Shown here one piece after another: positions 132 through 16,189 of a DNA stretch of 64,000 nucleotides. This stretch comes from Ditibartonella choladocola (GTDB lineage: Bacteria > Pseudomonadota > Alphaproteobacteria > Rhizobiales > Rhizobiaceae): assembly GCF_002007565.1 (NCBI RefSeq), contig NZ_CP015625.1, forward strand, positions 434,001 to 498,000, in the 5' to 3' direction. Numbering within the stretch: position 1 is the stretch's first letter; the number at the start of each line of letters is the position of its first letter. Position numbers and translations under genes: made by a program. A model generated the notes under the pieces. It searched no databases. It worked only from the letters and a program-made list of their open reading frames with translations, and was not told the DNA's origin.

Positions 132-1040
132 TTACGCTAAAGAAGAGCGGATATATTCCATGGACGTATTCAATCGTGAAGCGATGTTTTTATCGTTTTG
201 TACGTTCGGTGAGAATATTTCATGTGAAATATCACCTTTATATCCACGTTTCCGAAGCTCTTTAAGTTGCTGGATGTTGCTCATAATATCTTGTGGGTCG
301 ACAACGGTTCGGTCTTCATTGCGAATTGCATCAATAGGCAGGTTTTTATCGTCAACACCCGAAATATGGACAATTGCGGTCATATCGACAAAGTAATCCG
401 GATCCTGTGCCAGAAAATGATGGAATGTATCGTGAACCAGCCGGAAGACATCATTTCCACCGACATCCGATATGGCTTGGAGTGCAGTTTTTTTGCGGCG
501 CAGAGATGATTGTGTAAAACCTAGCGGCTCGATATATCCCATCACATTATGATCGTGAAATATTTTTGCCAATGCGTCGAGTGAACGTCGTAAACCGGCC
601 GCTTTTTCTTCGCTACTTCTCTTGTCATCCGGCTCGACTGACGGGCAGCAAACCACGCCTTTAGCCCCCAATTGTTGTGCTGCGGCAGCAATTGTTATCG
701 CTTTATTCTTTAATTCGTCGTTCCAAATATCCATCGGGTATAAGGCGTTGACTGTTAAAACTTTAATGTTTGCGGATTGACAGGTTTTTGCAACCTGACC
801 GATGTCTTTTGTGTTTTGTATTTCGCTACCGGCTATATCATTTCTAAGCTCGATATTGTCGATACCAAGGGTATGACATAAATCAAGATAATGACCGAGC
901 GATAAATGCGGTGCTGTTATCCGGTTCAAGGCAAATTTCGGTAAAGCTGGCTGGTTGCTTTCGGCGAGGGATTGTTTGATGTAAAATGGATTGGCAATGG
1001 CCATGAGGCCGATAGATTTCAGGATCTGTCTTCTATTCAT
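132..1040 (-). CDS. Exported TIM-barrel sugar isomerase/epimerase-like protein
   Basis: The 302-residue product resembles the AP-endonuclease-2 / xylose isomerase-like TIM-barrel family, which includes IolE-, IolI- and IolH-type sugar isomerases. It opens with MNRRQILKSIG and a hydrophobic stretch, a Tat-like signal, so it may act in the periplasm. Barrel motifs seen are IELRN, GYIEPLGF, LVHDTFHHF, VHISGVDD and HEIFSP, giving the E/D/H metal-site pattern of the family. I chose the ATG at 1040 because GGAGGG lies 7 bases upstream; a start at 1058 lacks a good site. It lies 14 bases after the enolase-superfamily gene and is probably cotranscribed with it. The substrate is not shown by sequence; a keto-inositol or lactone isomerase is an inference from the iolD/iolE context. 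Confidence 0.75.
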   Translation of the reverse strand: MNRRQILKSIGLMAIANPFYIKQSLAESNQPALPKFALNRITAPHLSLGHYLDLCHTLGIDNIELRNDIAGSEIQNTKDIGQVAKTCQSANIKVLTVNALYPMDIWNDELKNKAITIAAAAQQLGAKGVVCCPSVEPDDKRSSEEKAAGLRRSLDALAKIFHDHNVMGYIEPLGFTQSSLRRKKTALQAISDVGGNDVFRLVHDTFHHFLAQDPDYFVDMTAIVHISGVDDKNLPIDAIRNEDRTVVDPQDIMSNIQQLKELRKRGYKGDISHEIFSPNVQNDKNIASRLNTSMEYIRSSLA

Positions 1041-1054
1041 TTTAGGTCCCTCCG

Positions 1055-2254
1055 TCAAAGGTGACTGTTTCGCAAGATTGCATCTTTCCGGCGTTTTACA
1101 TTTTCATGAAGAGATATTCCGAGCCCCGGTTTTTCAGGAGCATGAATGCTTCCGTTTTCAATCGGCGGCAGGCCGGAAACGAGTTCGGGATACCACGATG
1201 CCAGACTTGCTCTGACCACTTCTTGATAAATGGCTGTGGAAGCATGGAGCGCCAGATGAAGACCGGCAACCAGTGTAACCGGACCGGTACAATCATGCGG
1301 TGCAAAGGGTTTGCTATAGATTTCGGCAAGATAGGCTATTTTGCGTCCTTCGGTCAGGCCGCCGCACCACGCGAGATCAGCCATCACAATATCGGTGGCA
1401 TCTGCCGACAGCATTTTTTGAAAACTTGCCGCTCCACCGAGTGTCTCACTACCGCAGACCGGAACGCGCACCCGTTGCCGCAGATCTGCCAATGCTTTGA
1501 AATTGTCCATTTTATTAATCGGGTCTTCGACCCAGAAGATATTGTAATCTTCCAAAGCGCGACAAATCCGCTCGGCTGCATATGAGCTCCACAAACTATG
1601 AAGTTCACACATGACTTCTATGCGATCACCGACCGCTTGCCGAATTTTTCTGAAAGGTTCCAATCCTTGCTTCAGTTCGGGCAAAGTGATGGTATTGCCA
1701 CCTGTCACAGCAAAAATATCAAAAGGCCAAATTTTCATTGCACTATAACCTTCCGATAACAGGCTTTCTGCGAGCGCACCGGCATCTTTTGTAAAAGCTA
1801 TCTGGTCGTCGGATGGACCGGCAGGAATTTCATTGCCACTTACCAAACGTCGGTTTACACCGCGCGAATTGAAGTCATAGCCGGCACAGGTATTATAAAC
1901 GCGTATTTCGTTCCTGCTTTTTCCGCCTATCGCTTCATAAACCGGTATGCCGTGGCGCTTGCCTGCAATATCCCACAGAGCAATATCGACAGCACTGGCC
2001 GCACGGATTTCAGCACCACTGCTGTTAAATCCGAGATAATAGCCCATCAACAAACGTGAAATTTCTTCTATATTTCTGGAATCTTTTCCAAGTATCTGGG
2101 GAGCAACGTGTTCATGAATCAGGGCTTCGACACTTTCAGCATTGCGGAAACTTTCTCCAAGACCGACAATGCCTTCATCGGTTGTGATTTCTACCCATAT
2201 AAGTTTCGGGCGGTCGGCAATCCGGATTGTTTGAATGGACTGAATTTTGGACAT
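1055..2254 (-). CDS. Mandelate racemase/muconate lactonizing family dehydratase (enolase superfamily)
   Basis: The 399-residue protein has the N-terminal capping domain and the C-terminal barrel of sugar-acid dehydratases and cycloisomerases. Visible active-site elements are AMKIWPFD, the metal-ligand strands CELH, VEDP and GSETL, the Asp of IVMADLAWCGG and the His of APHDCTGP. This is the His-Asp dyad pattern of the mandelate racemase subgroup (DgoD, galactarolactone cycloisomerase, RspA-like). These enzymes abstract the proton alpha to a carboxylate and usually eliminate water to give a 2-keto-3-deoxy acid. The start at 2254 has GGGAGAG upstream. It heads a two-gene unit with the exported TIM-barrel protein and diverges from an SDR gene. 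A deoxy-aldarate dehydratase role is inferred from neighbours. Confidence 0.85.
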   Translation of the reverse strand: MSKIQSIQTIRIADRPKLIWVEITTDEGIVGLGESFRNAESVEALIHEHVAPQILGKDSRNIEEISRLLMGYYLGFNSSGAEIRAASAVDIALWDIAGKRHGIPVYEAIGGKSRNEIRVYNTCAGYDFNSRGVNRRLVSGNEIPAGPSDDQIAFTKDAGALAESLLSEGYSAMKIWPFDIFAVTGGNTITLPELKQGLEPFRKIRQAVGDRIEVMCELHSLWSSYAAERICRALEDYNIFWVEDPINKMDNFKALADLRQRVRVPVCGSETLGGAASFQKMLSADATDIVMADLAWCGGLTEGRKIAYLAEIYSKPFAPHDCTGPVTLVAGLHLALHASTAIYQEVVRASLASWYPELVSGLPPIENGSIHAPEKPGLGISLHENVKRRKDAILRNSHL

Positions 2255-2305
2255 AATAACTCTCCCATTGCAGCATGTTGAAACTTATAATCGAAAAAAG
2301 TCAAT

Positions 2306-2467: not shown

Positions 2468-3256
2468 ATGAAAATTGAACTTAATGGTAAGCGGGCTATC
2501 GTAACCGGATCGACAAAAGGCATCGGTCTGGCGATCGCCAAAGGATTGGCGCTATCGGGCGCAGATGTCATCATTAATGGACGCAGTCGCGAAAGTGTCG
2601 AACATGCATCTGAAGAGTTGAAAAAAGCGACTGGCAAGGCTGTCCAGTCTTTTGTTGGCGATCTCTCTTTGGCGCAGGATTGCACAAAATTGACCGAGAC
2701 TTTTCCATCTGTCGATATATTGGTGAATAATCTTGGAATATTCGGCGAACGCGATTTTTATGACACAGGAGACGACGTTTGGGAGCAGTTTTTTGAAACC
2801 AATATTATGTCGGGTGTTCGCTTATCGCGCAATTTAACCCCGTCCATGATTAAAAAAGGATGGGGCAGGGTCATTTTTATTTCTTCGGAATCGGCCTTCA
2901 ATATACCTTCGGAAATGATTCATTATGGTGTGACAAAAACGGCGCTTTTGGCTTTATCGCGCGGTTTGGCAAAAAGACTGGCAGGAACCGGCGTGACGGT
3001 GAATGCGGTTCTGCCAGGGCCGACATTATCAGATGGTATGATTGAACAGTTGCAGGATGACATCAAGAAGAACGGTAAAACACTGGATCAGGCAGCCCGT
3101 GATTACGTTATGCGCATGCGTCCAAGTTCAATTCTTCAACGTCCAACGACAACAGACGAGGTCGCCAATATGGTCGTCTATATCGCTTCGCAACAGGCCT
3201 CAGGAACGACAGGTGCATCTATACGTGTCGACGGCGGTGTGATTGACTCAATTTGA
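2468..3256 (+). CDS. SDR-family NAD(P)-dependent oxidoreductase
   Basis: This 262-residue classical short-chain dehydrogenase has TGSTKGIG near residue 14 (nucleotide binding) and VNNLG in place of the usual NNAG. The catalytic Ser is in ISSESA and the active-site Tyr and Lys are in HYGVTK. The C-terminal RVDGGV is typical of the family. AAGGAAG lies upstream of the ATG. It diverges from the enolase-superfamily gene and converges on the aldolase gene. In this locus it could oxidise an inositol hydroxyl or the C1 aldehyde of a deoxy-uronate. The fold alone does not say which. Confidence 0.85.
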   Translation: MKIELNGKRAIVTGSTKGIGLAIAKGLALSGADVIINGRSRESVEHASEELKKATGKAVQSFVGDLSLAQDCTKLTETFPSVDILVNNLGIFGERDFYDTGDDVWEQFFETNIMSGVRLSRNLTPSMIKKGWGRVIFISSESAFNIPSEMIHYGVTKTALLALSRGLAKRLAGTGVTVNAVLPGPTLSDGMIEQLQDDIKKNGKTLDQAARDYVMRMRPSSILQRPTTTDEVANMVVYIASQQASGTTGASIRVDGGVIDSI

Positions 3257-3391: not shown

Positions 3392-3422
3392 TGAAACCGG
3401 CAAAACGGAGTTGCCGGTTTCA
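3392..3422. terminator. Bidirectional hairpin between convergent genes
   Basis: TGAAACCGGCAA at 3392-3403 pairs perfectly with TTGCCGGTTTCA at 3411-3422 around a 7-base loop. It lies between the convergent SDR and aldolase genes. The T-tract is weak on both sides, so termination is likely but not certain. Confidence 0.55.
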
Positions 3423-3455: not shown

Positions 3456-4217
3456 TCAGGTGCGGCAGGCTTTGACAAGTCCGGCTGTTTCGCGAGCAAG
3501 CAGCCAGGTATCGGCACCAACTGCAACAAAATCGGCACCTTCTGCAAAAAACTCGTGTGCAAGGGGAGCACCATATCCGAGCACACCGGCACCCTTTCCG
3601 TTGCTTTTAATGGTTCCCAATGCCTCTTTGATGACGCGTCTTACTTCAGGTGCATTCGCGTTACCCGTATATCCCATTGATGCTGAAAGATCACCGGGGC
3701 CAATGAAAATCGCATCAATGCCTTTAACGGCAGCAATTGCCGGAATATTGGCAATAGCCTGAGGTGTTTCAGCCTGCACAATAACGCAGATTTCTTCTTC
3801 GAGACGTTCGCGATATTGGCTATCTCTGCCATAGTCGGAAGCGCGGATAACTCCGGAAATGCCGCGTATACCGTGTGGCGGATACCTTGTCCATGAGACA
3901 ACCGCCTTAGCCTGTTCGGGTGTATCGATCATGGGAAACATAATGGTTTTAACACCTATATCGAGAAGGCGTTTGGCATATGTCTGTGTGCTTTCGGGCG
4001 GGCGGACAATGACTGCGGTTGCATGTTCGGCCGCTCTTAGCTGATCGGCAACGCCGGCCACCTCATTGGGGGCATGTTCCATGTCGACCAGTACCCAATC
4101 GGCTCCCGAACGGGCACAAATTTCGGCAGATGCGGGTGAACACAGCGAAACCCATAATCCTATGAGCTTCTTTTTGTGCAAATTTGCTTTAAAACTATTT
4201 CCCTGTTGCGTCATCAT
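3456..4217 (-). CDS. HpcH/HpaI-family 4-hydroxy-2-oxo-acid aldolase
   Basis: The 253-residue protein matches class II pyruvate aldolases such as HpaI, GarL and RhmA. Seen are GLWVSLCSP at the N-terminus, WVLVDMEHAPN with the catalytic His, VRPPE, GVKTIMFPMIDT, RGISG, VQAETPQA with the metal-binding Glu, and FIGPGDLSASMG with the metal-binding Asp. The family splits 4-hydroxy-2-oxo acids to pyruvate and an aldehyde. The start ATG overlaps the TAA of iolD (TAATG), so the two are translationally coupled. In this context the substrate could be 4-hydroxy-2-oxoadipate, giving pyruvate and malonate semialdehyde; that assignment is inference. Confidence 0.85.
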   Translation of the reverse strand: MMTQQGNSFKANLHKKKLIGLWVSLCSPASAEICARSGADWVLVDMEHAPNEVAGVADQLRAAEHATAVIVRPPESTQTYAKRLLDIGVKTIMFPMIDTPEQAKAVVSWTRYPPHGIRGISGVIRASDYGRDSQYRERLEEEICVIVQAETPQAIANIPAIAAVKGIDAIFIGPGDLSASMGYTGNANAPEVRRVIKEALGTIKSNGKGAGVLGYGAPLAHEFFAEGADFVAVGADTWLLARETAGLVKACRT

Positions 4218-6064
4218 TATACCCCCTCGCGTTGCATTTTTCTTCCATCAACTTGCTCGGCTCTTGCATCACAAACTTCCTTGCGGTGGCTTATTTCCGG
4301 AACCCCGACATCCCAGAACGAGTCGCCGGGCGTCCATTTGTCAGCAGCAACCGGAACATGAATAAGACAACTTTTATCCTGTTTGCGTGCCCAGTCCAAA
4401 GCATCTTCGAGCTCGCTATAACTGTCAACCCGTCTTGTAGCAGCTCCCATAGCGGCAGCATGGGCAGCAAAGTCGACGCCAAAGGGTTGCTTTACCTTAC
4501 TTTCGGCGATCATGTTATTATAAGGAACATTACCTTTTCCCACCTGTAGGCGGCGGATAACTGCAAAACCTTCATTGTCGCAGACGATAACAATAATCTT
4601 GTGCCCTGTGAGGACGGAAGAATAGATATCCGAATTGGCCATCAGGTAAGAGCCGTCGCCAAGCATGACATAGACTTCACCTTTATTACGTGCCATCGCT
4701 GTTCCCCAACCCGCGCCGATTTCATAGCCCATCGTCGAGGAGCCCATCTCGCTGTCGAAGCCGTAACGTCCCTTGACATGCCAGCCTTTCAGGAGTTCGC
4801 CGACAATTCCGCCTGCGGATGAAACGACGGTGTCAAATTCATCCGATTGGGCATTAACGGCACCGACAACTTGTGCGTAAGTGAGGATTTCACCATTGTC
4901 AGGTTTTTGAAACTGCTCGACTTTTTCATACCATTTTCGAGTGGCATCCTGTCCTCGTTTCAGCCAGTCTTTATCAGCTTTCCAAGAGCCGAGCTTTTCC
5001 GAAATATCGGCTAGTGCTTCTTTAGCATCGCCGACGACGCCTTGTGCCTGATGTTTGACGCTGTCAAAGCGCGTTGTATTGATTGAAACAAATTTCGCGT
5101 CGCGTGGAAAACACGTCCACGAGCCGGTGATGTAGTCTTGCAAACGTGTCCCAATGGCAATAATGCAGTCGGCGTTTGCTGCCATCATATTTCCGGCATC
5201 GGAACCGGATACGCCGATCATTCCCATCAGATTTTGATGACCATGTATCAATGTTCCTTTACCGGCGATTGTTTCTACAACCGGCAAATTGTATTTTTCG
5301 GCGAAGCTTTGCAAGTCCTGTTCGGCTTTTGAATAACGCACACCCCCGCCGGCAATGACAAGCGGACGTTCAGCTTTTTTAAGAGTTTCAACAGCCTGTT
5401 CTATGGATTTTTTGTCGGCGCGCGGGCGGTCTATGTGATGTATTTTTTTGGCAAAAAATGCTTCCGGATAGTCATAAGCCATTTCCTGAACATCCTGACA
5501 TAATCCGATAAATGCCGGTCCCGCAGTGGCCGGATCAAGCATGGTTGATACAGCATGAGGCAGTGAAGAAATAATCTGGGATGGATAGGTTATGCGATCC
5601 CAATAACGTGTGAACGGTTTAAAACCGTCACTCACAGTTGCTGTTGCATCCTGAAAATTTTCGGTTTGTTGTAAAACCGGATCGGGTCGACGGGTTGCAA
5701 AAACATCGCCCGATAACAAAAGAACCGGCAATCTGTTCGAGTAGGCGGCAGCGGCTGCGGTCATCATATTCGACGAGCCTGGTCCAATCGACGAAAGCGC
5801 TATCATAATCTGGCGGCGGCGGTGCTCTTTTGCGTAAGCAATGGCGGCCATCGCCATCGACTGTTCATTCTGTCCACGCCAAACCGGAAGTCTGTCGCGA
5901 TAGGGTTCCAGGGCCTCGCCAAGGCATGTCACATTGCCATGACCGAATATAGCAAAAATACCGGGAAATAGCGGCTTTTCAACGCCATCGTCGTCAATGA
6001 ACTGATTGATAAGGTAGCGAACCAATGCTTGCGCCATTGTCAGGCGTATCGTTTTTTGAGTCAT
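4217..6064 (-). CDS. iolD: 3D-(3,5/4)-trihydroxycyclohexane-1,2-dione hydrolase (IolD)
   Basis: The 615-residue ThDP-dependent enzyme has the IolD hallmarks PGIFAIFGHGNVTCLGEA, a ThDP-activating Glu region at WRGQNEQSMA, and VLLLSGDVFATRRPDPVLQQ. The diphosphate/Mg motif is in MLGDGSYLMANSDIYSS and continues into CDNEGFAVI. IolD opens the cyclic diketone formed by IolE, giving 5-deoxy-D-glucuronate in the cytoplasm. GGGAGGAAAAC precedes the ATG. It overlaps the aldolase gene by one base and follows an SDR by 27 bases. No iolB or iolC (isomerase and kinase for the classical next steps) is found in the window, which is unusual beside iolD. Confidence 0.93.
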   Translation of the reverse strand: MTQKTIRLTMAQALVRYLINQFIDDDGVEKPLFPGIFAIFGHGNVTCLGEALEPYRDRLPVWRGQNEQSMAMAAIAYAKEHRRRQIMIALSSIGPGSSNMMTAAAAAYSNRLPVLLLSGDVFATRRPDPVLQQTENFQDATATVSDGFKPFTRYWDRITYPSQIISSLPHAVSTMLDPATAGPAFIGLCQDVQEMAYDYPEAFFAKKIHHIDRPRADKKSIEQAVETLKKAERPLVIAGGGVRYSKAEQDLQSFAEKYNLPVVETIAGKGTLIHGHQNLMGMIGVSGSDAGNMMAANADCIIAIGTRLQDYITGSWTCFPRDAKFVSINTTRFDSVKHQAQGVVGDAKEALADISEKLGSWKADKDWLKRGQDATRKWYEKVEQFQKPDNGEILTYAQVVGAVNAQSDEFDTVVSSAGGIVGELLKGWHVKGRYGFDSEMGSSTMGYEIGAGWGTAMARNKGEVYVMLGDGSYLMANSDIYSSVLTGHKIIVIVCDNEGFAVIRRLQVGKGNVPYNNMIAESKVKQPFGVDFAAHAAAMGAATRRVDSYSELEDALDWARKQDKSCLIHVPVAADKWTPGDSFWDVGVPEISHRKEVCDARAEQVDGRKMQREGV

Positions 6065-6091: not shown

Positions 6092-6868
6092 TTATTTTTT
6101 GAGTATGAGATTTTGAACTGTTCTTCCGCCGTCTGCGTAAAGTGATTGTCCGGTCACGTAACTTGAAGCATCATCGAGCAGAAAAGCGATGGAGCTTGCA
6201 ATCTCTTCGGGGTTACCGACACGGCCTAATGGCGTTCGGGAAAGGACTGAATCGAGAGCATCGGGACTTTCTTTAACGAGAGCGTCGAGAAGTGCCGTTC
6301 GTATTGTTCCGGGAGCCATCGCGTTCACGCGAATGCCATATGGAGCAAGCTCGACTGACATAACACGGGTCATTTGTGCAACCGCTCCCTTTGATGTCGC
6401 ATAAGCCGTGTGGGTCGCTGTAGCAATGATCGCATTGACTGACGAAAGCAACACGACAGCATATGTACTATTGTCCTGACGCGGATGCTCTTTCCACAGA
6501 CGCGCGCAGATCTGGGTAAATCTGAAAGAACCCAATACATTAATATCAAGAATGTTTTTGAATTCGTCGTCACTTAATGAAAAGAAATCATGGTGCCGAT
6601 CAACACCTGCGCTGGTTACAAGACCGTCCGGCATTCCGAATTTTTCGACGGCTTGCCCGATGATTGTTTCGATTTGTTTCCGGTCGGTTACATCGCAGGT
6701 TTCAAACGTTATGCGATCAAACTCCGCTTCCGATTGTGAAAAAGACGCTTTTTGCCGATCAATAGCGAGAATTCTTGCACCACGTTTGGCGAGATATTTC
6801 GCGGTCGCTAGTCCAATGCCGCCGGCACCACCTGTAATAATATAGAATTTTCCGTCGAATGACATCAT
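6092..6868 (-). CDS. SDR-family NAD(P)-dependent oxidoreductase
   Basis: This 258-residue classical SDR has ITGGAGGIG at the nucleotide-binding turn, TSAGVD in place of NNAG, the catalytic Ser in VLLSSVNA, and Tyr/Lys in AYATSKGA. RVNAMAPGTIRT and the C-terminal YADGGR are family features. The ATG at 6868 has AAGGA upstream; a second ATG follows at once. It sits between the amidohydrolase gene (8-base gap) and iolD, in one probable operon. By analogy with uronate dehydrogenase/lactonase pairs it could oxidise 5-deoxyglucuronate to a lactone, but this is inferred from context. Confidence 0.85.
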   Translation of the reverse strand: MMSFDGKFYIITGGAGGIGLATAKYLAKRGARILAIDRQKASFSQSEAEFDRITFETCDVTDRKQIETIIGQAVEKFGMPDGLVTSAGVDRHHDFFSLSDDEFKNILDINVLGSFRFTQICARLWKEHPRQDNSTYAVVLLSSVNAIIATATHTAYATSKGAVAQMTRVMSVELAPYGIRVNAMAPGTIRTALLDALVKESPDALDSVLSRTPLGRVGNPEEIASSIAFLLDDASSYVTGQSLYADGGRTVQNLILKK

Positions 6869-6875: not shown

Positions 6876-7706
6876 TTAAGGTTTTGAAAAGCCGTAGAGG
6901 CGCATTGCGTTTGAATAAAATAACTTTTCTGCCGCTTCCGGTGTGTCGGTAAGCCTCATTGTCAATTCAATGAGGGCCAAATCGTCGGGGGGCGGCTGTA
7001 AATTGGGATGCGGCCAATTGGATGCCCAAACCACCCGATCCGGTATATGGGAAACGAGCGTGCGCGCCAGAACCGTTACATCTTCATAATCGGGAGCGCC
7101 GGTTTTCGACGTTTCATAAAAGCCGGAAATCTTGACCCATCTGTTTTCGTTTTCGAGAAGGCGCAGAAGTGTTTGGAATTCATCCGAATGAACTTTAACG
7201 GGGGGGATAAATTTGCCTACGTGATCGATGACGAGCGGACAGGCAATTTGTGAAATGATGTCCCGATATTGCGGCAGTTTTCTTCCGTCCATTTGCAAAT
7301 GAAGCTGCCAGCCTATATCCGCCAGACGTTTTGATAACTCTACCAGTTCACTCCATTGCAATAACGGGTCAAACAGCATAAAGGCTCTTAAACCGCGAAC
7401 GCCTTTGTTATCGAGATCCTGCCATAATTTTTTAGGCGCATCGGCTTTTGTAACCGCAATAGCGCAAGCGCGCTTCAATCCAAGCGCTTCAACGCCGTGA
7501 AGCATCACCGAATTATCGGTGCCATAGAGCATTGATTGCACAACAGCTACTTTTTCAATATTCAGTTCCGCCATTTTTTGTTGATAGGAATTAACGTCGG
7601 CGACGGGAACTTTAAATGGCGTTGTCGCCGTGTTAGCGACAGTATTATAAAAGTGCATATGTGCATCAAAAAGACGAGGTGGTAAGAATTTGTTATTATC
7701 AAGCAT
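6876..7706 (-). CDS. Amidohydrolase-2 family lactonase/hydrolase
   Basis: The 276-residue protein belongs to the COG3618-type amidohydrolases, which include 2-pyrone-4,6-dicarboxylate hydrolase, fuconolactonase and galactarolactone isomerase. It shows LFDAHMHFYN at the N-terminus, LHLQMDGR, LVIDHVGKF, WVKISGFYE and VVWASNWPHPNLQ with the conserved C-terminal acidic/His loop. The family acts on sugar-acid lactones. TTG at 7709 or ATG at 7706 is possible; neither has a strong ribosome site, and I took the ATG. It is the first gene of the minus-strand unit that runs through the SDR, iolD and the aldolase, and it diverges from the GntR regulator. Confidence 0.82.
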   Translation of the reverse strand: MLDNNKFLPPRLFDAHMHFYNTVANTATTPFKVPVADVNSYQQKMAELNIEKVAVVQSMLYGTDNSVMLHGVEALGLKRACAIAVTKADAPKKLWQDLDNKGVRGLRAFMLFDPLLQWSELVELSKRLADIGWQLHLQMDGRKLPQYRDIISQIACPLVIDHVGKFIPPVKVHSDEFQTLLRLLENENRWVKISGFYETSKTGAPDYEDVTVLARTLVSHIPDRVVWASNWPHPNLQPPPDDLALIELTMRLTDTPEAAEKLFYSNAMRLYGFSKP

Positions 7707-7881
7707 CAAATTTACTGGGAGTTGATGCCATTATCGAACATCTGTATTCCCGCTCCCCATTATGGTTTTACTGAAAGTTTCACCTGAACTATATAAAAGC
7801 CTATCTATAGTTTTAGTCAATATTAATTTTAAAAAAGAAAGGGCTGTTTTTTAATATAATGATTTTACTTATTAAAAATAG

Positions 7882-7931: not shown

Positions 7932-8612
7932 ATGACGACGCCGCTCATTGATGGTGCTCTTGATAAATTAAGAACTTTGTTGCGTGATCCTGCTATCAAG
8001 GTTGGTGACAGATTGCCGCCGGAGACATATTTGTCGCGCCAGATACAGGTTTCACGCCCTGTTTTGCGTAAGGCGCTCGATATATTGAAGGCCGAAGGCG
8101 TACTTGAATCCCGTCGCGGGTCGGGAACGTATCTGCGTGAAAAAGCAACAGAAGAAACGGCCTTTATCGACCCGCCGACGACGATTGCCGATCTCGTTAA
8201 ATGTTTACAATTCAGAATGATTATCGAGGGGGGAGCCGCCCGACAAGCAGCACTTGTTCGCAGCGACGAGGATGTCGAAAAAATACACGCGGCCATGGAG
8301 CTTTATGCAAAGTCCGGTGTTGACGGTGAAGAACAGATGGATCGCGATATCGAATTTCATCGTCTGATTGTCGCAGCCGCACACAACCATTATCTTGATT
8401 TTACATTCAATATGTTGAAGCCGCATATTCTGGTCGCTATGCGTCTGGGACGCCAAATGCGCACCGTTGCTTTCGATTGGAGACATGCTGAAAGAGTGGC
8501 AAAAGAACATGCCGGTATATTTACAGCTATCAAAGACAACGCGCCGGATGAGGCGGAAGCGGCTGTATTGAAACATTTGTCGGCAGGCATAGAACGATTG
8601 ATAGGGAAATAA
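7932..8612 (+). CDS. FadR-type GntR transcriptional regulator
   Basis: The 226-residue protein has an N-terminal winged helix (LPPETYLSRQIQVSRPVLRK, then the wing at ESRRGSGTYL) and a C-terminal all-helical FCD-like ligand domain with DIEFHRLIVAAAHN as the metal-site helix. Such proteins usually repress sugar-acid or organic-acid operons and release on binding a pathway intermediate. AGGAGATG precedes the ATG. It sits between the minus-strand lactonase-SDR-iolD-aldolase operon and the plus-strand transporter-iolE-dehydrogenase genes, so it is the likely local regulator of both. Confidence 0.85.
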   Translation: MTTPLIDGALDKLRTLLRDPAIKVGDRLPPETYLSRQIQVSRPVLRKALDILKAEGVLESRRGSGTYLREKATEETAFIDPPTTIADLVKCLQFRMIIEGGAARQAALVRSDEDVEKIHAAMELYAKSGVDGEEQMDRDIEFHRLIVAAAHNHYLDFTFNMLKPHILVAMRLGRQMRTVAFDWRHAERVAKEHAGIFTAIKDNAPDEAEAAVLKHLSAGIERLIGK

Positions 8613-8847: not shown

Positions 8848-9732
8848 ATGGAAGCACTGCTTATTGGCCTGGTGCCTGCTCTGGGATGGGGGCTGCAAGT
8901 CCTCTCTATGCAAAAAGTCGGTGGTATTACCCAAAATAAATTGATGGGTGTTGTCACTGCCACACTTATATTTGCAATTGTCGTCTGGATATTCGGGGAG
9001 CCGATCATTTGGTCCCCAACATTGATTGCAGCAGCCCTGATTAATGGTATTTGCTGGACAGTCGCGCAATTTTTACAGGTTCGCGCTTTCGAGCTCATAG
9101 GCGTATCGAAAGCTTATCCGATTGTGACAGGACTGACATTGGCCTGTAATACTCTGCTTGGCGTCCTTTTCTTCAAAGATTGGATTGCTTCCTGGCAGTT
9201 TATGTGCGGTGTTCCGGCTCTTCTGCTTTTGATTGTCGGCGTTTGGCTTACCACATTCACCGAGAAAAAAGAAGAAGTCCACGGCAATGCCAAGCTTGGC
9301 ATGATATTTGTCTTGCTATCGTCACTGACATATATCGCCTACGCCTCTATCGGAAAGTTTTTTACTGTCGATGGCTGGCAGATGGTCGTTCCACAATCAA
9401 TTGTGATGTTTGTCGCTACATTAATCTTATGTGTTTTGACCATGGGGAAATCTGTTGGCGACAAGGATACCGGTGTTTTCGGTAAAAAGACATTTGCCAA
9501 TTTACTTTCCGGCCTTTTCTTCGCAATAGCCAATTTTACACTTTTGATTTCTATCCAGATGAATGGATTGGCTGTCGGTTGGACGCTGTCTCAAATGGCT
9601 GTGGTTGTTGCAACATTGGGTGCACTTCTGTTTTTGAAGGAAAAAAAGACACGTAAAGAGCTGATCTATGTTTTGTCCGGCGTCGGCTGTGTTGTCATTG
9701 GCGGTTTGATGGTCGGCGCGACCAAAATGTAA
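8848..9732 (+). CDS. GRP/RbsU-GlcU-type sugar uptake permease
   Basis: The 294-residue protein has about ten hydrophobic segments arranged as two halves of a drug/metabolite-transporter fold. The signatures GWGLQVLSMQKVGG, AQFLQVRAFELIGVSKAYPI and NTLLGVLFFKDW match the glucose/ribose uptake (GRP) family rather than the EamA exporters. GGGAGGAAAAT precedes the ATG. It is followed 39 bases later by iolE, so it probably imports the cyclitol or keto-cyclitol used by the locus. The exact substrate is inferred. Confidence 0.8.
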   Translation: MEALLIGLVPALGWGLQVLSMQKVGGITQNKLMGVVTATLIFAIVVWIFGEPIIWSPTLIAAALINGICWTVAQFLQVRAFELIGVSKAYPIVTGLTLACNTLLGVLFFKDWIASWQFMCGVPALLLLIVGVWLTTFTEKKEEVHGNAKLGMIFVLLSSLTYIAYASIGKFFTVDGWQMVVPQSIVMFVATLILCVLTMGKSVGDKDTGVFGKKTFANLLSGLFFAIANFTLLISIQMNGLAVGWTLSQMAVVVATLGALLFLKEKKTRKELIYVLSGVGCVVIGGLMVGATKM

Positions 9733-9771: not shown

Positions 9772-10668
9772 ATGAAAGCTCGATTGGCAGCATGCCCTAT
9801 CGCATGGACAAATGACGATCTTCCCGAATTGGGCGGAGATACTCCGGTTGAACAATGTTTGGAAGAAAGCCGCAAAGCTGGCTACAGCGGAACAGAAATG
9901 GGCGGCAAATTCCCGCGCGAAACAAATGTTCTTCGGCAATTATTGGCAAACAATGATCTGGCATTGGCCGCAAGCTGGTATTCCGGCACTTTGCTTGATA
10001 ACAATTTGGAAGCGGAAAAAAAGCAAGCCTTGCCTTTAATGAAGTTGCTACGTGATCTTGATGTAAAGACAATGGTTTATGGTGAAGTTGCCCGCAGCAT
10101 ACAAGGTCAACGTCATGTTCCGTTAAACAAGCGTCCGCAATTGAACGACGATGAAATTCTCGGCTATGCGCAGAAGATGAACGATTTTGCCGATTGGTGT
10201 CTCACAGAAGATATTCAACTTGCCTATCACCACCATCTTGGCGCGGTGATTGAAAGGGAACATGATATTGATCGCTTTCTTGCAGCAACCAAAAAGAGCG
10301 TTGGCTTGTTGTTTGACACCGGACATCTCGTTATGGCGGGCGTTGATCCGTTATCTATACTGAAAAAATACGGCAAACGTGTCGTCCATGTCCATTGCAA
10401 GGATGTTCGTGAAAATATCATGAATGGAATTGATCGGGATCGTTCCTCCTTTCTGGATTGCGTTCTGGAAGGCGTCTTTACCGTGCCCGGTGACGGTATG
10501 ATCGATTTCCAGAAAATTTGTGACGAACTGGCCGCACAACATTATCAAGGCTGGTTCGTTGTTGAAGCCGAACAGGATCCTGAAAAAGCACCTCCGCTGC
10601 AATATGCTACCATGGGTTATAACTATCTGAAAAAATGCTTGAATAATTCGGGCTATATTATAGAGTAG
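9772..10668 (+). CDS. iolE: Inosose dehydratase (IolE)
   Basis: The 298-residue TIM-barrel protein follows rhizobial IolE closely in the parts I can recall: MKARLAACPIAWTNDDLPEL, MVYGEVARSIQGQRHVPL, LAYHHHLGAVIE, FDTGHLVMAG, VHCKDVR, GAFTVPGDG-like VFTVPGDGMIDF and FVVEAEQDP. IolE removes water from scyllo-inosose (2-keto-myo-inositol) to give the diketone that IolD opens. AAGGA precedes the ATG. It is separated from iolD by the GntR and transporter genes and transcribed the other way, and sits upstream of the GMC dehydrogenase complex that could supply its keto substrate. Confidence 0.92.
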   Translation: MKARLAACPIAWTNDDLPELGGDTPVEQCLEESRKAGYSGTEMGGKFPRETNVLRQLLANNDLALAASWYSGTLLDNNLEAEKKQALPLMKLLRDLDVKTMVYGEVARSIQGQRHVPLNKRPQLNDDEILGYAQKMNDFADWCLTEDIQLAYHHHLGAVIEREHDIDRFLAATKKSVGLLFDTGHLVMAGVDPLSILKKYGKRVVHVHCKDVRENIMNGIDRDRSSFLDCVLEGVFTVPGDGMIDFQKICDELAAQHYQGWFVVEAEQDPEKAPPLQYATMGYNYLKKCLNNSGYIIE

Positions 10669-10756: not shown

Positions 10757-11494
10757 ATGAGACGCCGTGAATTTATTACAATGTTAACGGGATTTATGGT
10801 GGCGGGAACATTTGTCCAGAAAGGTTGTGCGACAATTATAAACAGCACAATGCCCTGGAAGGCCGATGCAACGCCTATGTCGTTTTATCCTGTTATTGAT
10901 GAACATAAACTTGTTTTTTTCACACAATCGGAAGCCGATGTGATGGGTGCAATTGCCGATTGTTTTATTCCGTCGGATGAATTGGGTATTGGCGGGAAAG
11001 AAGCCGGTTGTGTAACCTTTATCGACAATCAATTGGCCGGTGCATTCGGCAAGGGAACAAAACAATATCTGGTTGGCCCGTTTTTGAAAGGCACGCCTGA
11101 ACAAGGCCCGCAATATTCATTTTCTCCGGCTGAACGCTATAAAATCGGTTTGGCTGCACTTGATACATATTGCAAAAATACGGATGGCAAGAGCTTTGAT
11201 AAACTATCGAACGAACGTCAGATAGCCATATTGGAGGCTATGGAAGAAGGAACTTTGCCTTTACCCGACAATGTTCATCCCAAAGCTCTTTTTGAACTCA
11301 TGCTGCAAAACGTCCGTGAAGGTTATCTTTCGGATCCGATATATGGGGGTAACAAAGGAATGGCAAGCTGGAAGATGCTGGGCTTTCCGGGTGCCCGGTA
11401 CGATTTCCGTTTTGCAATGGATCGCAAAGGCGAAAATCTCGGCATCGAGCCTATCAGTCTCGTTATGCGTAGCAATCATAAACAAGGAATCTGA
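10757..11494 (+). CDS. Gluconate 2-dehydrogenase subunit 3 family protein
   Basis: The 245-residue protein starts MRRREFITMLTGF followed by a hydrophobic run, a Tat signal that would carry the folded complex to the periplasm. The rest matches the gluconate 2-dehydrogenase gamma subunit family (ADCFIPSDELGIGGKEAGC, FIDNQL, GFPGARYDFR). This small subunit is needed for export and maturation of the flavoprotein. It ends two bases before the flavoprotein start. The natural substrate of the complex is not set by sequence; given iolE just upstream, an inositol or keto-sugar is plausible. Confidence 0.85.
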   Translation: MRRREFITMLTGFMVAGTFVQKGCATIINSTMPWKADATPMSFYPVIDEHKLVFFTQSEADVMGAIADCFIPSDELGIGGKEAGCVTFIDNQLAGAFGKGTKQYLVGPFLKGTPEQGPQYSFSPAERYKIGLAALDTYCKNTDGKSFDKLSNERQIAILEAMEEGTLPLPDNVHPKALFELMLQNVREGYLSDPIYGGNKGMASWKMLGFPGARYDFRFAMDRKGENLGIEPISLVMRSNHKQGI

Positions 11495-11496: not shown

Positions 11497-13272
11497 ATGA
11501 CAAATCATCGTCCTAAAGCCGATGTTGTCATCGTCGGTCTTGGTTGGGCAGGGTCTTTGATTGCCGAAGAACTGACCCGCGCTGGTCTTGATGTTGTTGC
11601 AATCGAACGGGGGCCATGGTTGGAAACCTCGACCGACCATCCGCCTGCTGTCGATGCTGATGAACTACGTTGGGATACACGTCGTGACCTGATTTTACCG
11701 CCGGCCATAGAAACCATCACGGTGCGTAATGATCGCACACAAACAGCCTTGCCTGTGCGTGACTGGAGCACTTTCGACATGGGCTATAATGTCGGTGGTG
11801 CAGGCGCCCATTGGGCAGGAATGGCATGGCGTTTTACGGCCTATGATTTCAAGCCGATGACAACGATTGCCGAGCGTTACGGTAAAGATAAACTGGTTGA
11901 TGGCCTTATCGTACAGGATTGGGGTGTCAGCTACGATGATCTGGAGCCGTTTTACGATCGTTATGAAAAAATTGCCGGTATTTCCGGCAAAGCCGGTAAC
12001 CTTCAGGGTAAAATTATTGAAGGCGGCAATCCGTTTGAAGAACCGCGTCAAAACGAATATCCGTTGCCACCTTTGAAAACAACACGTTTGACGGATATTT
12101 TTACCGAAGCAACGGCAAATATGGGCTATCATCCGTTCATGGTACCGGCAGCCCAGACATCTGCTGCCTATACCAATCCGTTCAACATCCATATGGCACC
12201 ATGTACCTATTGTGGTTATTGCCTCTATTATGGTTGCGGAAACTGGTCAAAGGGAACGCCGAACAATTGTGTTATTCCGGCCTTGATGCAACGCAAGAAT
12301 TTTACAGTTATTGCAGATTCAACCGTTCTTAAAGCCAATCTTGCACCCGACGGCAAAACTGCGACCGGTGTGAGCTATATTGATAAACATACCGGTGAAG
12401 AATGGGAACAACCTGCCGATATTGTAGTGTTCAGCGCATTCCAGTTGCATAATGTGCGCCTGTTGCTGCTTTCAAAAATTGGCAAGCCTTACGATCCGGT
12501 ATCCGGAGAAGGTACGGTCGGTCGCGCTTATTGTTTCCAGACAGTTTCCGGCGCAAGCATTTTCTTCAAGAACGAATATCTCAACCAGTTCGCCGGTTCG
12601 GGTGCCTTGTCTGCCCAGATTGACGATTTCAATGGCGATTGTTTCGATCATTCAAATCTCGATTTTATTGGTGGCGCGGGCATTCTGGTTGTTACCAGAG
12701 GTTCCCGCCCCATCGGAAATACAGACTTTCTCCCGCCCGGTACTCCGCGTTGGGGAAGAGAGTGGAAAAAAGCCTACAAACATGCGTTTCAGAACGCGAC
12801 TGTCGTTTTCGGGCAGGGTACAAGCTATTCCCACAAGGATTACTACCTTGATCTCGACCCCACTTATAAAGACGGCCATGGACAACCATTGTTGAGAATG
12901 ACCTTCAATTATAATGAAAATGATCGCCGTTCTGCCCGATTTATTGAGCAAAAAAGTGTCGAAATCGGTTATGCCATGAAAGCCGAACATGTTGTCGGTA
13001 CAAATTCTGCACGAGCAAATTTCACCGGCTATGACACAGCGAGCGATCACACAATTGGTGGCGCAGTGATGGGTGAAGATCCCAGAACGAGCGTTTTGAA
13101 CCGCTATCAACAAAGCTGGGATGTGCATAACGTATTCGTATCGGGAGCGTCGTCATTTCCCAATAATGCCGGCTATAATCCTACCGCAACAGTCGGTGCA
13201 CTGGCACTGTGGACTGCACGCGCAATTATAGAAAAATATATACCGGCTCCCGGTCCGTTGGTACGTGTTTGA
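11497..13272 (+). CDS. GMC-family flavoprotein dehydrogenase, large subunit
   Basis: The 591-residue protein is a glucose-methanol-choline oxidoreductase of the membrane gluconate/polyol dehydrogenase type. The FAD-binding turn VVIVGLGWAGS is at residues 11-21, GGAGAHWAG is near residue 97, a Cys-rich CTYCGYCLYYGCG lies near residue 230, and the C-terminal GASSFPNNAGYNPT carries the conserved Asn. It lacks its own signal and would travel with the Tat-bearing small subunit. Electrons would pass to the cytochrome c encoded 11 bases downstream and then to ubiquinone. The complex oxidises a sugar or cyclitol on the outer face of the inner membrane; the specific substrate is inferred. Confidence 0.9.
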   Translation: MTNHRPKADVVIVGLGWAGSLIAEELTRAGLDVVAIERGPWLETSTDHPPAVDADELRWDTRRDLILPPAIETITVRNDRTQTALPVRDWSTFDMGYNVGGAGAHWAGMAWRFTAYDFKPMTTIAERYGKDKLVDGLIVQDWGVSYDDLEPFYDRYEKIAGISGKAGNLQGKIIEGGNPFEEPRQNEYPLPPLKTTRLTDIFTEATANMGYHPFMVPAAQTSAAYTNPFNIHMAPCTYCGYCLYYGCGNWSKGTPNNCVIPALMQRKNFTVIADSTVLKANLAPDGKTATGVSYIDKHTGEEWEQPADIVVFSAFQLHNVRLLLLSKIGKPYDPVSGEGTVGRAYCFQTVSGASIFFKNEYLNQFAGSGALSAQIDDFNGDCFDHSNLDFIGGAGILVVTRGSRPIGNTDFLPPGTPRWGREWKKAYKHAFQNATVVFGQGTSYSHKDYYLDLDPTYKDGHGQPLLRMTFNYNENDRRSARFIEQKSVEIGYAMKAEHVVGTNSARANFTGYDTASDHTIGGAVMGEDPRTSVLNRYQQSWDVHNVFVSGASSFPNNAGYNPTATVGALALWTARAIIEKYIPAPGPLVRV

Positions 13273-13283
13273 GGAGGGGGATG

Positions 13284-14594
13284 ATGAAGAGATTTTTTAA
13301 AATTATCCTTGGCCTCGTTGTTCTGGGTGTTATCGTGGCAGTTGGCGGAATTGTAACAATGCCGTCGCGCAATTACGATAGTTCGCAATTTGCTAGTAAA
13401 GGCTCTGACCGGAAAGATGATAGCGAGCTGAAGGCAAGTATTTTACGCGGGCAATATGTTGCCTTGACTGCCGATTGTGTTGCCTGTCACCAAACCAAAG
13501 ATCATAAGGCTGATCTTTCTGGCGGTTTCGGGGTAGAAACGCCCTTCGGTATGCTTTATGCCAGCAATATTACGCCGGATAAAGAAACCGGTATAGGAAA
13601 TTGGACAGAAGCACAATTTGCCGATGCTGTGCGCAATGGCAAGGGGCCGAATGGCCCGCTTTATCCGGCAATGCCTTATACATCCTATGTCAAGATGAGC
13701 GATCAGGATATTCATGATTTGTGGAACTATCTGCAAACTGTAACCCCTGTTCATAATGAGGTTGTCGAAAACCGGTTATCATTTCCCTTCAATATCCGTT
13801 TTCTGATGCTTGGTTGGAAACGGCTGTTCTTTGATGCCTCGGATATAAAGGTTGTGAAAGACCAATCACCGGAATGGAACCGCGGTCGTTATCTCGTTCA
13901 GGGGGCTGCACATTGTTCCATGTGCCATACGCCACGTAATGCTTTTGGTGCCGAAATCAATTCCCGTCGTTACACCGGAGCGACGTTGCAAAACTGGTAT
14001 GCACCATCACTAACCGGTTCCAAAGACGAAGGGTTGGGCAATTGGGATGAAGCTTCATTGGTTCAATATTTGAAAACCGGCAGCAACCATGTAACTGTTG
14101 CATCCGGCCCGATGGCAGAGGCCGTCAAGGCATCCTTCCAGTATTTCACCGACGACGATTTGAAAGCCATGGCGATTTATATCAAATCATTGCCGGATCA
14201 CGGTGCAGTGAAACTGCAAGCTTTATCGGCCGATAACCCGCAAATGGTCAATGGCAAACGCATCTTTAACGACAATTGCACTGCCTGTCATGTATCCAAT
14301 GGAACAGGTGTCGCCGATATGATTCCGGCTTTCAAAGGCAATAACGGGATTAAAGGTGGAAGTAGTGAAAGCTTGACACGTGTTTTGCTGGTCGGTTCTC
14401 AAGGAGCGATCACACGGTTTAATCCGACGGGTGCGTCAATGCCGGGTTTTGCATGGAAATTTACAAACCGGCAGGCTGCCGATGTGTTGACCTATATCCG
14501 TAATGAGTGGGGCAATGCGGCACCTGCGGTTTCGCCTGACGAAGTTGCCAAAATGCGTGAAACGTTGAAAGCAAGAAAACCGTTAGGGGAATGA
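13284..14594 (+). CDS. Triheme cytochrome c subunit of GMC dehydrogenase
   Basis: The 436-residue protein has an N-terminal hydrophobic anchor (FFKIILGLVVLGVIVAV) and three c-type heme sites, CVACH, CSMCH and CTACH, the pattern of the membrane cytochrome subunit of gluconate and alcohol/polyol dehydrogenases. It passes electrons from the flavoprotein to quinone. I chose the ATG at 13284 because AGGAGG ends 6 bases before it; the longer reading from 13209 overlaps the flavoprotein gene and has no signal. It ends the transporter-iolE-dehydrogenase run. Confidence 0.9.
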   Translation: MKRFFKIILGLVVLGVIVAVGGIVTMPSRNYDSSQFASKGSDRKDDSELKASILRGQYVALTADCVACHQTKDHKADLSGGFGVETPFGMLYASNITPDKETGIGNWTEAQFADAVRNGKGPNGPLYPAMPYTSYVKMSDQDIHDLWNYLQTVTPVHNEVVENRLSFPFNIRFLMLGWKRLFFDASDIKVVKDQSPEWNRGRYLVQGAAHCSMCHTPRNAFGAEINSRRYTGATLQNWYAPSLTGSKDEGLGNWDEASLVQYLKTGSNHVTVASGPMAEAVKASFQYFTDDDLKAMAIYIKSLPDHGAVKLQALSADNPQMVNGKRIFNDNCTACHVSNGTGVADMIPAFKGNNGIKGGSSESLTRVLLVGSQGAITRFNPTGASMPGFAWKFTNRQAADVLTYIRNEWGNAAPAVSPDEVAKMRETLKARKPLGE

Positions 14595-14652
14595 TACTCG
14601 ACACGTCGGGCTTTGAGCCAAGGTCGCTCTCGATATTGGTAAAACTTTAAAA

Positions 14653-14684
14653 AATCCGGGGTATTCTTCATAATACCCCGGATT
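14653..14684. terminator. Bidirectional intrinsic terminator
   Basis: AATCCGGGGTATT (14653-14665) pairs perfectly with AATACCCCGGATT (14672-14684) around a 6-base loop, between the convergent cytochrome c and mmsA genes. The minus-strand side is followed by TTTTAAAGTTTT. Confidence 0.8.
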
Positions 14685-14692
14685 GTTCAGCT

Positions 14693-16189
14693 TTATTTCA
14701 TAGTCGGCATCGAGAATTCGGCGCCGCTGCGAATACCTGAGGGCCAACGCGACGTGACCGTCTTGGTGCGTGTGAAGAAGCGGAACGCATCCGGTCCATG
14801 TTGGTTCAAATCACCAAAAATGGAAGCTTTCCAGCCACCGAAAGTATAATAGGCAACCGGTGTCGGTATCGGCACATTGACGCCGACCATGCCAACTTCT
14901 ACGCGACTGACAAAATCCCGCGCTGCATCACCGTCACGCGTGAAAATAGTCACGCCATTGCCGAATAAATGTGTGGTTGGCAAAGCGAGAGCTTCTTCAT
15001 AATTCTTGGCACGAATAACGCCAAGAACCGGCCCGAAGATTTCTTCTTTATATATCTGCATTTCATTGGTGACATTATCAAACAGGCAGGGGCCGACATA
15101 AAAGCCGTTTTCATAGCCCGGAAGTTTGAAGTTGCGCCCGTCGACGACCAGTTTTGCACCTTCTTTGACACCGATATCGACATAATTGAGGATACGCTGT
15201 TGGGCTTCTCTTGTTACAACCGGACCATAATCGGCTGAAGGATCGAGCGAATTGCCAACCTTCAAGGCTTTGACACGGGGAATAAGCTTTTCCATTAACC
15301 GGTTGGCTGTATCTTCTCCGATGGGAACTGCGACCGAGATCGCCATGCAACGTTCACCGGCAGAACCATAACCGGCTCCGATCAATGCATCTACAACCTG
15401 ATCGAGATCGGCATCCGGCATAATCAACATGTGATTTTTGGCGCCGCCCAGAGCTTGTACCCGCTTGCCATTTGCGGCCGCCCGTTCGTAAATATATCGG
15501 GCTATAGGCGTCGAGCCTACAAAACTTACAGCTTTAATATCGGGATTATCCAGAATTGCGTTAACTGCGTCTTTGTCGCCGTTAACAACGTTAAATATTC
15601 CGGCAGGGCCACCGGCTTCGATAAACAATTCTGCCAATCTGAGCGGCACACCCGGATCGCGTTCGGACGGTTTGAGAATGAAAGCGTTGCCGCAAGCAAT
15701 TGCAGGTCCGGCCATCCAAAGCGGAATCATAGCCGGAAAATTGAAAGGGGTAATACCGGCGACGACGCCCAAAGGTTGGCGGATCGAATAAGTGTCAATG
15801 CCGGGGCCGGCACCTTCAGTAAATTCTCCCTTTGTCAAATGGGGCACACCAAGGCTTAATTCCACAACTTCCAGACCGCGCTGTATATCTCCGGCAGCAT
15901 CGGAAACTGTTTTGCCATGCTCTTTGGCGAGAAGTTCCGAAAGCGGTTTCATTTCCTCCTCGACAAGTGTTAAAAATTTGCGCAACACACGCGATCGGCG
16001 TTGCGGGTTGACAGCCGCCCAGGCAGGTTGTGCCGCTGCTGCAATCTTCACCACTTCGTCGATTTCAGCTTTCGTTGCCAAATCGACTTTGGCTTGAACC
16101 GAACCATCCATAGGCAGAAAAACGTCGGACTGGCGCCCGCTTTTACCTTTGACAGATTTACCGTTTATAAAATGACCATATTCTTGCAT
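14693..16189 (-). CDS. mmsA: CoA-acylating (methyl)malonate-semialdehyde dehydrogenase
   Basis: The 498-residue ALDH-fold enzyme matches MmsA/IolA: GHFINGKSV at the N-terminus, TPFNFPAMIPLWM, VSFVGSTPIARYIY, and the catalytic Cys in GSAGERCMA. It converts malonate semialdehyde to acetyl-CoA, CO2 and NADH, or methylmalonate semialdehyde to propionyl-CoA. I chose ATG at 16189 because GGAGGA sits just upstream; the TTG at 16201 would place that site inside the coding region. It is the last enzyme of inositol catabolism and also serves valine and beta-alanine degradation. It stands beside the iolD/iolE locus under a divergent LysR gene. Confidence 0.92.
   Translation of the reverse strand: MQEYGHFINGKSVKGKSGRQSDVFLPMDGSVQAKVDLATKAEIDEVVKIAAAAQPAWAAVNPQRRSRVLRKFLTLVEEEMKPLSELLAKEHGKTVSDAAGDIQRGLEVVELSLGVPHLTKGEFTEGAGPGIDTYSIRQPLGVVAGITPFNFPAMIPLWMAGPAIACGNAFILKPSERDPGVPLRLAELFIEAGGPAGIFNVVNGDKDAVNAILDNPDIKAVSFVGSTPIARYIYERAAANGKRVQALGGAKNHMLIMPDADLDQVVDALIGAGYGSAGERCMAISVAVPIGEDTANRLMEKLIPRVKALKVGNSLDPSADYGPVVTREAQQRILNYVDIGVKEGAKLVVDGRNFKLPGYENGFYVGPCLFDNVTNEMQIYKEEIFGPVLGVIRAKNYEEALALPTTHLFGNGVTIFTRDGDAARDFVSRVEVGMVGVNVPIPTPVAYYTFGGWKASIFGDLNQHGPDAFRFFTRTKTVTSRWPSGIRSGAEFSMPTMK

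Follow-up and report, generated by a model that had tools for sequence, protein, structure and literature searches.

The classical pathway of myo-inositol catabolism (IolG-E-D-B-C-J/A) passes through 5-deoxyglucuronate, which IolD produces and IolB isomerises, a role also given in the name of the NCBIfam model for IolB, and its C3 product is dihydroxyacetone phosphate. A non-classical inositol route in Thermotoga proceeds via 5-keto-L-gluconate and tagaturonate and is not known to involve IolE, IolD and 5-deoxyglucuronate. The Udh-Gli-Gci system of Agrobacterium tumefaciens is an oxidative uronate pathway, and its Gci belongs to the enolase superfamily. We analysed a 64,000-nucleotide stretch of the genome of Ditibartonella choladocola (NZ_CP015625.1, positions 434,001 to 498,000; hereafter the window), in which a gene cluster at 132-16201 combines IolE and IolD with enzymes that resemble those of the uronate pathway. 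We consider it probable (about 72%) that this cluster encodes a kinase-free, non-phosphorylating myo-inositol route to pyruvate and malonate semialdehyde.

The IolE and IolD steps, and the conversion of malonate semialdehyde to acetyl-CoA by MmsA/IolA, are common to the classical pathway and the proposed route, but the enzymes of the phosphorylated branch are missing here, and pyruvate is proposed as the C3 product in place of dihydroxyacetone phosphate. An IolC-DUF2090 fusion has been put forward, from genomes and mutant fitness, as an alternative C3-C3 cleavage enzyme in inositol catabolism; as outlined in PMC9007349, this variant still phosphorylates, whereas kinase and phosphate would be bypassed here. 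The likeness to Udh-Gli-Gci lies in the succession of reactions sketched in PMC6353982, in which a dehydrogenase yields an aldarolactone, a lactone enzyme acts on it and a 2-keto-3-deoxy acid follows. According to the same outline that pathway ends in 2-oxoglutarate (PMC6353982), whereas pyruvate and malonate semialdehyde are proposed here; the substrate would be a 5-deoxy compound delivered by IolD, and an aldolase takes the place of KdgD, which was not searched for in the genome of the window. The classical pathway does not fully describe this genome, for which the oxidative uronate pathway offers the closest working model. For the aldolase itself, the closest described enzyme is HpaI, 4-hydroxy-2-oxoheptanedioate aldolase (TIGR02311), which naturally releases an omega-carboxy semialdehyde as its aldehyde product. 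The window aldolase belongs to the same family and has HpaI as its top-scoring model, but it falls under the equivalog cut-off and its proposed substrate is one carbon shorter.

Gene content and the phosphorylated branch

We called genes on the open reading frames (ORFs) of the window by Pfam domains and by NCBIfam models with curated cut-offs. The core of the cluster is a single minus-strand run of four genes, from 7709 down to 3456: LacA (6876..7709), an amidohydrolase-superfamily lactone enzyme placed in the ATU3138/LigI group by sequence and structure comparison; SDR2 (6092..6868, PF13561), a short-chain dehydrogenase (SDR); IolD, trihydroxycyclohexane-1,2-dione acylhydrolase (4217..6064; TIGR04377, 796 bits, cut-off 715); and an HpcH/HpaI-family pyruvate aldolase (3456..4217, PF03328), which overlaps IolD by one base. 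On the same strand lie an enolase-superfamily (MR/MLE) acid-sugar dehydratase or lactone cycloisomerase (1055..2254; PF13378, 188 bits) and MmsA, a CoA-acylating (methyl)malonate semialdehyde dehydrogenase (14693..16201; TIGR01722, 643 bits, cut-off 448.5), and on the plus strand IolE, 2-inosose dehydratase (9772..10668; TIGR04379, 402 bits, cut-off 290). A preliminary description of the window had named IolE, IolD, two SDRs, the enolase-superfamily enzyme, the aldolase and MmsA at about these coordinates, in agreement with our searches.

In the proposed route, inositol would be oxidised to 2-inosose, probably by a membrane GMC-cytochrome dehydrogenase, and IolE and IolD would convert 2-inosose to 5-deoxyglucuronate. 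SDR2 would oxidise C1 of the furanose form of 5-deoxyglucuronate, giving 5-deoxyglucaro-1,4-lactone and replacing both isomerisation by IolB and phosphorylation by IolC. LacA and the enolase-superfamily enzyme would jointly carry this lactone, possibly through 5-deoxyglucarate, to 4-hydroxy-2-oxoadipate. From this the aldolase would release pyruvate and malonate semialdehyde, the latter of which MmsA would turn into acetyl-CoA and CO2. The carbon skeleton closes on paper, and in contrast to the classical route this one would cost no ATP and would not need lower glycolysis. The IolE, IolD and MmsA steps are predicted from family assignment only, and we infer those of SDR2, the lactone enzyme, the enolase-superfamily enzyme and the aldolase.

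The genome of the window is one contig of 2,907,212 bases, 100% complete, and the lack of iolB and iolC, which the preliminary description had reported for the window, holds throughout it. The IolB/KduI domain (PF04962) has no match in the complete genome, against 6 positive genomes among 14 controls, and neither has the IolB model TIGR04378. The best genome-wide match to the IolC model TIGR04382 has 99 bits where the cut-off requires 300, on an ORF that reads as an adenosine-kinase-like PfkB protein. The DUF2090 aldolase (PF09863) has no match genome-wide (the searches did not include the IolJ-type class II aldolase, PF01116); with no IolB, IolC below its cut-off and no DUF2090, we reject an ordinary classical pathway with its missing genes elsewhere. 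The NAD-dependent IolG (TIGR04380) reaches at best 130 bits genome-wide against a cut-off of 355, which leaves the membrane dehydrogenase or the second short-chain dehydrogenase, SDR1, as the likely first enzyme.

Recurrence in other genomes

With a profile built from LacA and a dozen of its relatives and a two-peptide-pattern scan, we found the cassette at three loci in a one-genome-per-species collection, and others may have been missed. Pseudomonas sp. BP8, a single contig of 6.0 Mb, carries all seven homologues within about 20 kb and in the same core order: MmsA (54% identical), a LysR-type gene, LacA (53%), SDR2 (63%), IolD (65%), HpaI (66%), IolE, a Gfo/Idh dehydrogenase, an SDR and a sugar porter. 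Its IolE scores 326 bits (cut-off 290) and is 39% identical to that of the window, the LysR-type gene between MmsA and LacA is just 25% identical to the window LysR, and the enolase-type gene (64%) lies about 15 kb from LacA, adjoining a GntR gene with 34% identity to the window GntR. This one-contig genome has no IolB and no DUF2090, and its best IolC match is 160 of 300 bits.

The other two loci are arranged differently. In a metagenome-assembled genome (MAG) of the Rhodobacteraceae, a GntR gene (42%) is divergent from the enolase type (43%), LacA (49%) and SDR2 (59%), followed by a sugar-binding protein, IolD (65%) and HpaI (65%), and no IolB match was found in this genome. In Brucella pseudogrignonensis, a GntR gene (39%) is divergent from the enolase type (43%), LacA (53%), SDR2 (63%), HpaI (64%), IolB, an IdnD-like dehydrogenase and a symporter. 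The IolB of this cassette scores 285 bits (cut-off 205) and stands next to an L-idonate-5-dehydrogenase-like gene (the pair at 12458-14295 of the locus), and no IolD occurs in the 20.8 kb around the cassette. Over the three loci the aldolase is 64-66% identical to that of the window, the enolase-type enzyme 64% in BP8 and 42-43% in the other two, and SDR2 59-63%, adjoining the lactone enzyme each time.

The recurrence of the core in three other genomes, with the LacA-SDR2-IolD-HpaI order kept in BP8, indicates a grouping beyond chance. A cassette found beside IolD in several genomes and beside IolB in a different one most simply acts on the metabolite that these two enzymes share, 5-deoxyglucuronate, which is also the substrate required by the scheme of the preliminary description. 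The Brucella form could begin with 2-deoxy-5-ketogluconate made by the IdnD-like enzyme, IolB then working in the reverse direction. The pair of IolB and the IdnD-like gene suggests an entry there from a 2-deoxy sugar acid, not from inositol.

Six of the eight non-self IolD clusters at 64-67% identity are linked to a LacA homologue, five by a longest contig exactly as long as that of a LacA homologue and one, P0128, by a contig whose length (35005) equals that of the MAG record in which both genes were seen; the other two are unmatched. A tree of 34 IolD rows groups the window protein with others in a 12-member clade (support 100/99), nine of them labelled LacA-linked and three having no contig match, and a matching row chosen by eye, P0152, lies outside it. 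The IolD of both BP8 and the MAG is 65% identical to that of the window. LacA was also sought in 71 genomes of the genus (about 1.4-2.9 Mb), 394 of the family, 398 of the genus taken as Pseudomonas and 394 of the family taken as Rhodobacteraceae. These samples held no further LacA orthologue, the best other matches being 31, 38, 42 and 39% identical, respectively. That the cassette is rare is only indicated by this: the samples gave no match as strong as those of BP8, Brucella and the MAG. Among 36 weaker LacA homologues (21 in the Pseudomonas-genus sample, 6 in the Rhodobacteraceae-family sample, 8 in the window's own family and 1 in its own genus), IolD was nearby in none of the 13 whose surroundings were examined. 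In a plasmid collection, homologues of LacA reached 41%, of HpaI 56% and of IolD 59%. A locus from the family taken as Rhodobacteraceae (L034) shows the classical arrangement, with IolD beside PfkB and class II aldolase genes and an IolB-like match.

IolD is also found with a second set of genes. At five sampled loci (L049, L051-L053 and L054), an IolD 53-58% identical to that of the window accompanies a distant HpaI-family aldolase (31-33%). All of these except L054 also have aldehyde dehydrogenase and Gfo/Idh enzymes, and L051 has a hydroxyacid dehydrogenase-type gene. Plasmids from Shinella sp. WSC3-e and Pantoea sp. At-9b carry an annotated IolD together with an aldolase/citrate lyase family protein, a succinate-semialdehyde-type dehydrogenase and a MurR/RpiR regulator, joined in Shinella by an NAD(P)-dependent oxidoreductase and IolG and in Pantoea by a hydroxyacid dehydrogenase and IolE. 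Neither iolB nor iolC is annotated in the 20 kb of these two plasmid loci, the rest of the two genomes not having been searched, and the stretches of the five sampled loci and both plasmids hold no match to or annotation of IolB. This second kit is possibly another kinase-free variant, running for example via hydroxypyruvate and malonate semialdehyde. If so, the IolD product may meet a kinase-free fate more commonly than the rare LacA cassette would indicate.

The lactone step and competing readings

The preliminary description had taken LacA for a COG3618-type lactonase. An amidohydrolase-superfamily lactone enzyme is present, but its fold is closest, among solved structures, to A. tumefaciens ATU3138, which we take to be the galactarolactone isomerase Gli. 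Asn231 of LacA stands at the position of the catalytic Asp248 of LigI in all 13 aligned rows, one of which is the window protein; the structure record 4dia is titled as the D248N mutant of LigI. With Asn at this position, we reject a plain LigI-like lactone hydrolase. An invariant His137, which aligns with an Ala of ATU3138, could be a replacement base for water. Working the chemistry by hand, we found that 5-deoxyglucaro-1,4-lactone has no neighbouring hydroxyl for a simple acyl shift, which weakens the direct analogy with Gli. We propose that LacA acts on the lactone made by SDR2 by hydrolysis or isomerisation. Given the route, lactone hydrolysis followed by dehydration has a chance somewhat short of even, and a lactone isomerase/cycloisomerase shortcut is a more tentative option. 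Of the scheme in the preliminary description, the kinase-free route to pyruvate and malonate semialdehyde is supported, while the lactonase step needs revision.

In the shortcut, LacA would convert 5-deoxyglucaro-1,4-lactone into the 6,3-lactone, which the enolase-superfamily enzyme would open by beta-elimination, in the way that Gci acts on galactaro-1,4-lactone, to yield 4-hydroxy-2-oxoadipate with no free 5-deoxyglucarate. As a version of the proposed route, contained in the probability given to it, we regard this as doubtful. The exchange of acyl groups from 1,4 to 6,3 is unlike the simple shift of Gli, and His137 could serve as a base for water. The nearest solved chains to the enolase-superfamily enzyme, 3dip, 4dx3 and 2pod, are titled merely enolase or MR/MLE enzyme, and it is not specially near 4ggb, presumably Gci, galactarolactone cycloisomerase (104.9 bits, against 538 for 3dip). 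On the other hand, the shortcut would account for Asn231 in all 13 rows and for ATU3138 as the nearest structure, and the 6,3-lactone would share the reactive geometry of galactaro-1,4-lactone. It also has a precedent in Udh-Gli-Gci, where, as outlined in PMC6353982, the lactone is not hydrolysed. A still broader reading combines these elements. A complete kinase-free inositol pathway would have spread among unrelated Proteobacteria, with 5-deoxyglucuronate as a branch node fed from inositol by IolD or, as in Brucella, from a 2-deoxy-keto sugar acid by reversed IolB. The lactone would be isomerised and opened by a cycloisomerase, never hydrolysed, the first oxidation in the window would be periplasmic and respiratory, and a second, independent kinase-free IolD branch, made up of an aldehyde dehydrogenase, an HpaI-family aldolase and a hydroxyacid dehydrogenase, would exist in other Proteobacteria such as Shinella and Pantoea. 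As a whole this is unlikely.

Several observations weigh against the proposed kinase-free route. Hydrolysis by LacA is doubtful because Asn replaces the catalytic Asp of LigI. Nor is there a partner hydroxyl for a simple acyl shift of the Gli type, since O5 is missing from 5-deoxyglucuronate. A LacA orthologue occurs in just 1 of the 71 genomes of the genus. On a separate contig the MAG carries an IolC match of 318.5 bits (cut-off 300) and, next to it, one to DUF2090 of 35.5 (cut-off 27); it may run the classical route too and gives no clean support for a missing classical branch. Brucella pseudogrignonensis has, also on a separate contig, a classical IolB, of which the cassette IolB is a second copy, and IolC-DUF2090. 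The aldolase and the enolase-type enzyme exceed no NCBIfam cut-off, and nor do their relatives: the former belongs to the PF03328 superfamily but stays below the HpaI cut-off (275 bits, cut-off 368.8), and the best model for the latter, D-gluconate/galactonate dehydratase, gives 192 bits, far below its cut-off of 750. On the IolD tree the LacA-linked label changes 5 times and not once (shuffled mean 8.8, with 1 of 500 shuffles as low), the link for 7 of the 10 rows so labelled rests on contigs of equal length, and the branch of the window's IolD is long, according to a program warning. On a Sulfitobacter faviae plasmid, the one examined of 14 such plasmid matches, a 56% aldolase homologue lies among sugar-acid genes (L-arabinonate dehydratase, altronate dehydratase family, aldehyde dehydrogenase and 2-hydroxyacid dehydrogenase) with no IolD in 18.7 kb, so the aldolase subfamily is not exclusive to the cassette.

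As an alternative to an inositol route, SDR2, LacA, the enolase-type enzyme and the aldolase might form an ordinary oxidative pathway for uronates or sugar acids on the model of Udh-Gli-Gci. It would degrade glucuronate or galacturonate to, for example, pyruvate and tartronate semialdehyde, with IolD and IolE as neighbours in another role. The structural closeness of LacA to ATU3138 would fit, as would the Sulfitobacter homologue and the name D-galactarolactone isomerase given to many LacA relatives by JGI, and an O5-to-O4 acyl shift would be sensible on a normal uronate. The aldolase also matches GarL (229 bits), but scores higher with HpaI (275). We judge this alternative improbable. Both the window and BP8 have IolD within the operon, flanked by SDR2 and HpaI, and in the MAG it adjoins HpaI, while IolB accompanies the cassette in Brucella. 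MmsA is close by in the window as well as in BP8 (the searches did not cover a tartronate semialdehyde reductase). Far more remote is the idea that the classical phosphorylated pathway runs with diverged, unrecognised IolB and IolC. Generic PfkB kinases are encoded in the genome, but the best of them falls far short of the IolC cut-off, the complete genome holds no KduI/IolB domain and no DUF2090 aldolase, and the gaps in Pseudomonas sp. BP8 are identical.

If the kinase-free route is real, 5-deoxyglucuronate has a second fate, substrates can be offered for an HpaI subfamily, for the enolase-superfamily group near 3dip and for a Gli-like amidohydrolase, and a bacterium could use inositol without lower glycolysis. 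In the open-access literature, at the level of titles and abstract openings, we found no description of such a route (subscription papers and preprints lay outside the search), and nothing on Bartonella inositol catabolism in the honey bee context. A survey of 193,757 genomes, as outlined in PMC9430895, defined an inositol-degrading cluster by at least three of iolB, iolC, iolD and iolE; a genome of the window's type, with two of the four, would escape that criterion as given there.

Further genes of the window

The preliminary description left out a three-gene membrane dehydrogenase (10757-14594), the regulator genes and the transporter genes. To the right of the GntR gene the order is transporter, IolE, membrane dehydrogenase, MmsA, LysR and pyruvate carboxylase. 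The dehydrogenase, on the plus strand, comprises a Gluconate_2-dh3 subunit of a membrane sugar dehydrogenase (10757..11494; PF13618, 101 bits), a GMC flavoprotein (11497..13272; PF05199, PF00732) and a multi-haem c-type cytochrome (13209..14594; PF00034 in 3 stretches), whose ORF overlaps that of the flavoprotein; a start near 13281 would remove the overlap. The flavoprotein is a candidate inositol-to-inosose dehydrogenase feeding the respiratory chain. By eye, the N-terminus of the first subunit, MRRREFITML..., is lipoprotein-like and resembles a twin-arginine translocation (Tat) signal. A Tat-signal-like N-terminus, MNRRQILKSIGLMAIA, also follows an internal ATG (about 1040) in a xylose-isomerase-like TIM barrel (AP_endonuc_2) on the minus strand (132..1058; PF01261, 72 bits; no NCBIfam match at 0.001), possibly a periplasmic inosose isomerase or epimerase. 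The two Tat-like N-termini suggest that substrate oxidation and isomerisation take place in the periplasm.

SDR1 (2468..3256, plus strand; PF13561, PF00106) is a possible inositol-isomer dehydrogenase; it was the best-scoring window gene for no ORF in the Brucella, Pseudomonas sp. BP8 or MAG cassette loci. In SDR2, a YxxxK motif and an Asp ending the second strand, both seen by eye, suggest the use of NAD. A GntR/FCD protein (7932..8612, plus strand; PF00392, PF07729) is the likely regulator of the cassette, and a RhaT/RbsU-type sugar transporter (8848..9732, plus strand; PF06800, 252 bits) is a candidate carrier of inositol or inosose. A LysR regulator (16209..17165, plus strand; PF03466, PF00126) is divergent from mmsA. 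Just 3' of the LacA-SDR2-IolD-HpaI run lies a terminator-like 12-pair stem (3392..3422, minus strand), which is weak evidence, as 31 such sites were found in 1-17500 against a mean of 21.4 in shuffles.

A pyruvate carboxylase (17280-20738) adjoins the cluster and fits the assimilation of pyruvate and acetyl-CoA, although its adjacency may be coincidence. Among named matches this carboxylase is nearest to that of Bartonella sp. LJL80 (85%), with Brucella sp. IR073 and Bartonella tamiae among those at 81%, which together with the small genomes of the genus points to a Bartonella. Immediately left of the window (3169-3663 of locus L064) is an ORF that by eye resembles an ABC-transporter ATPase and is apparently truncated, at 164 amino acids. 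At 22398-32028, a PucR-type regulator, a class III aminotransferase, an MFS transporter, two M20 peptidase-family genes, an arginase-family gene and an aldehyde dehydrogenase resemble a catabolic cluster for amines or guanidino compounds. The aldehyde dehydrogenase ORF (31246-32028) covers only the C-terminal half of its family and may be broken or split. On the minus strand at 49020-52205, genes for a putative cyclase, a thiolase and a CoA-transferase stand in tandem.

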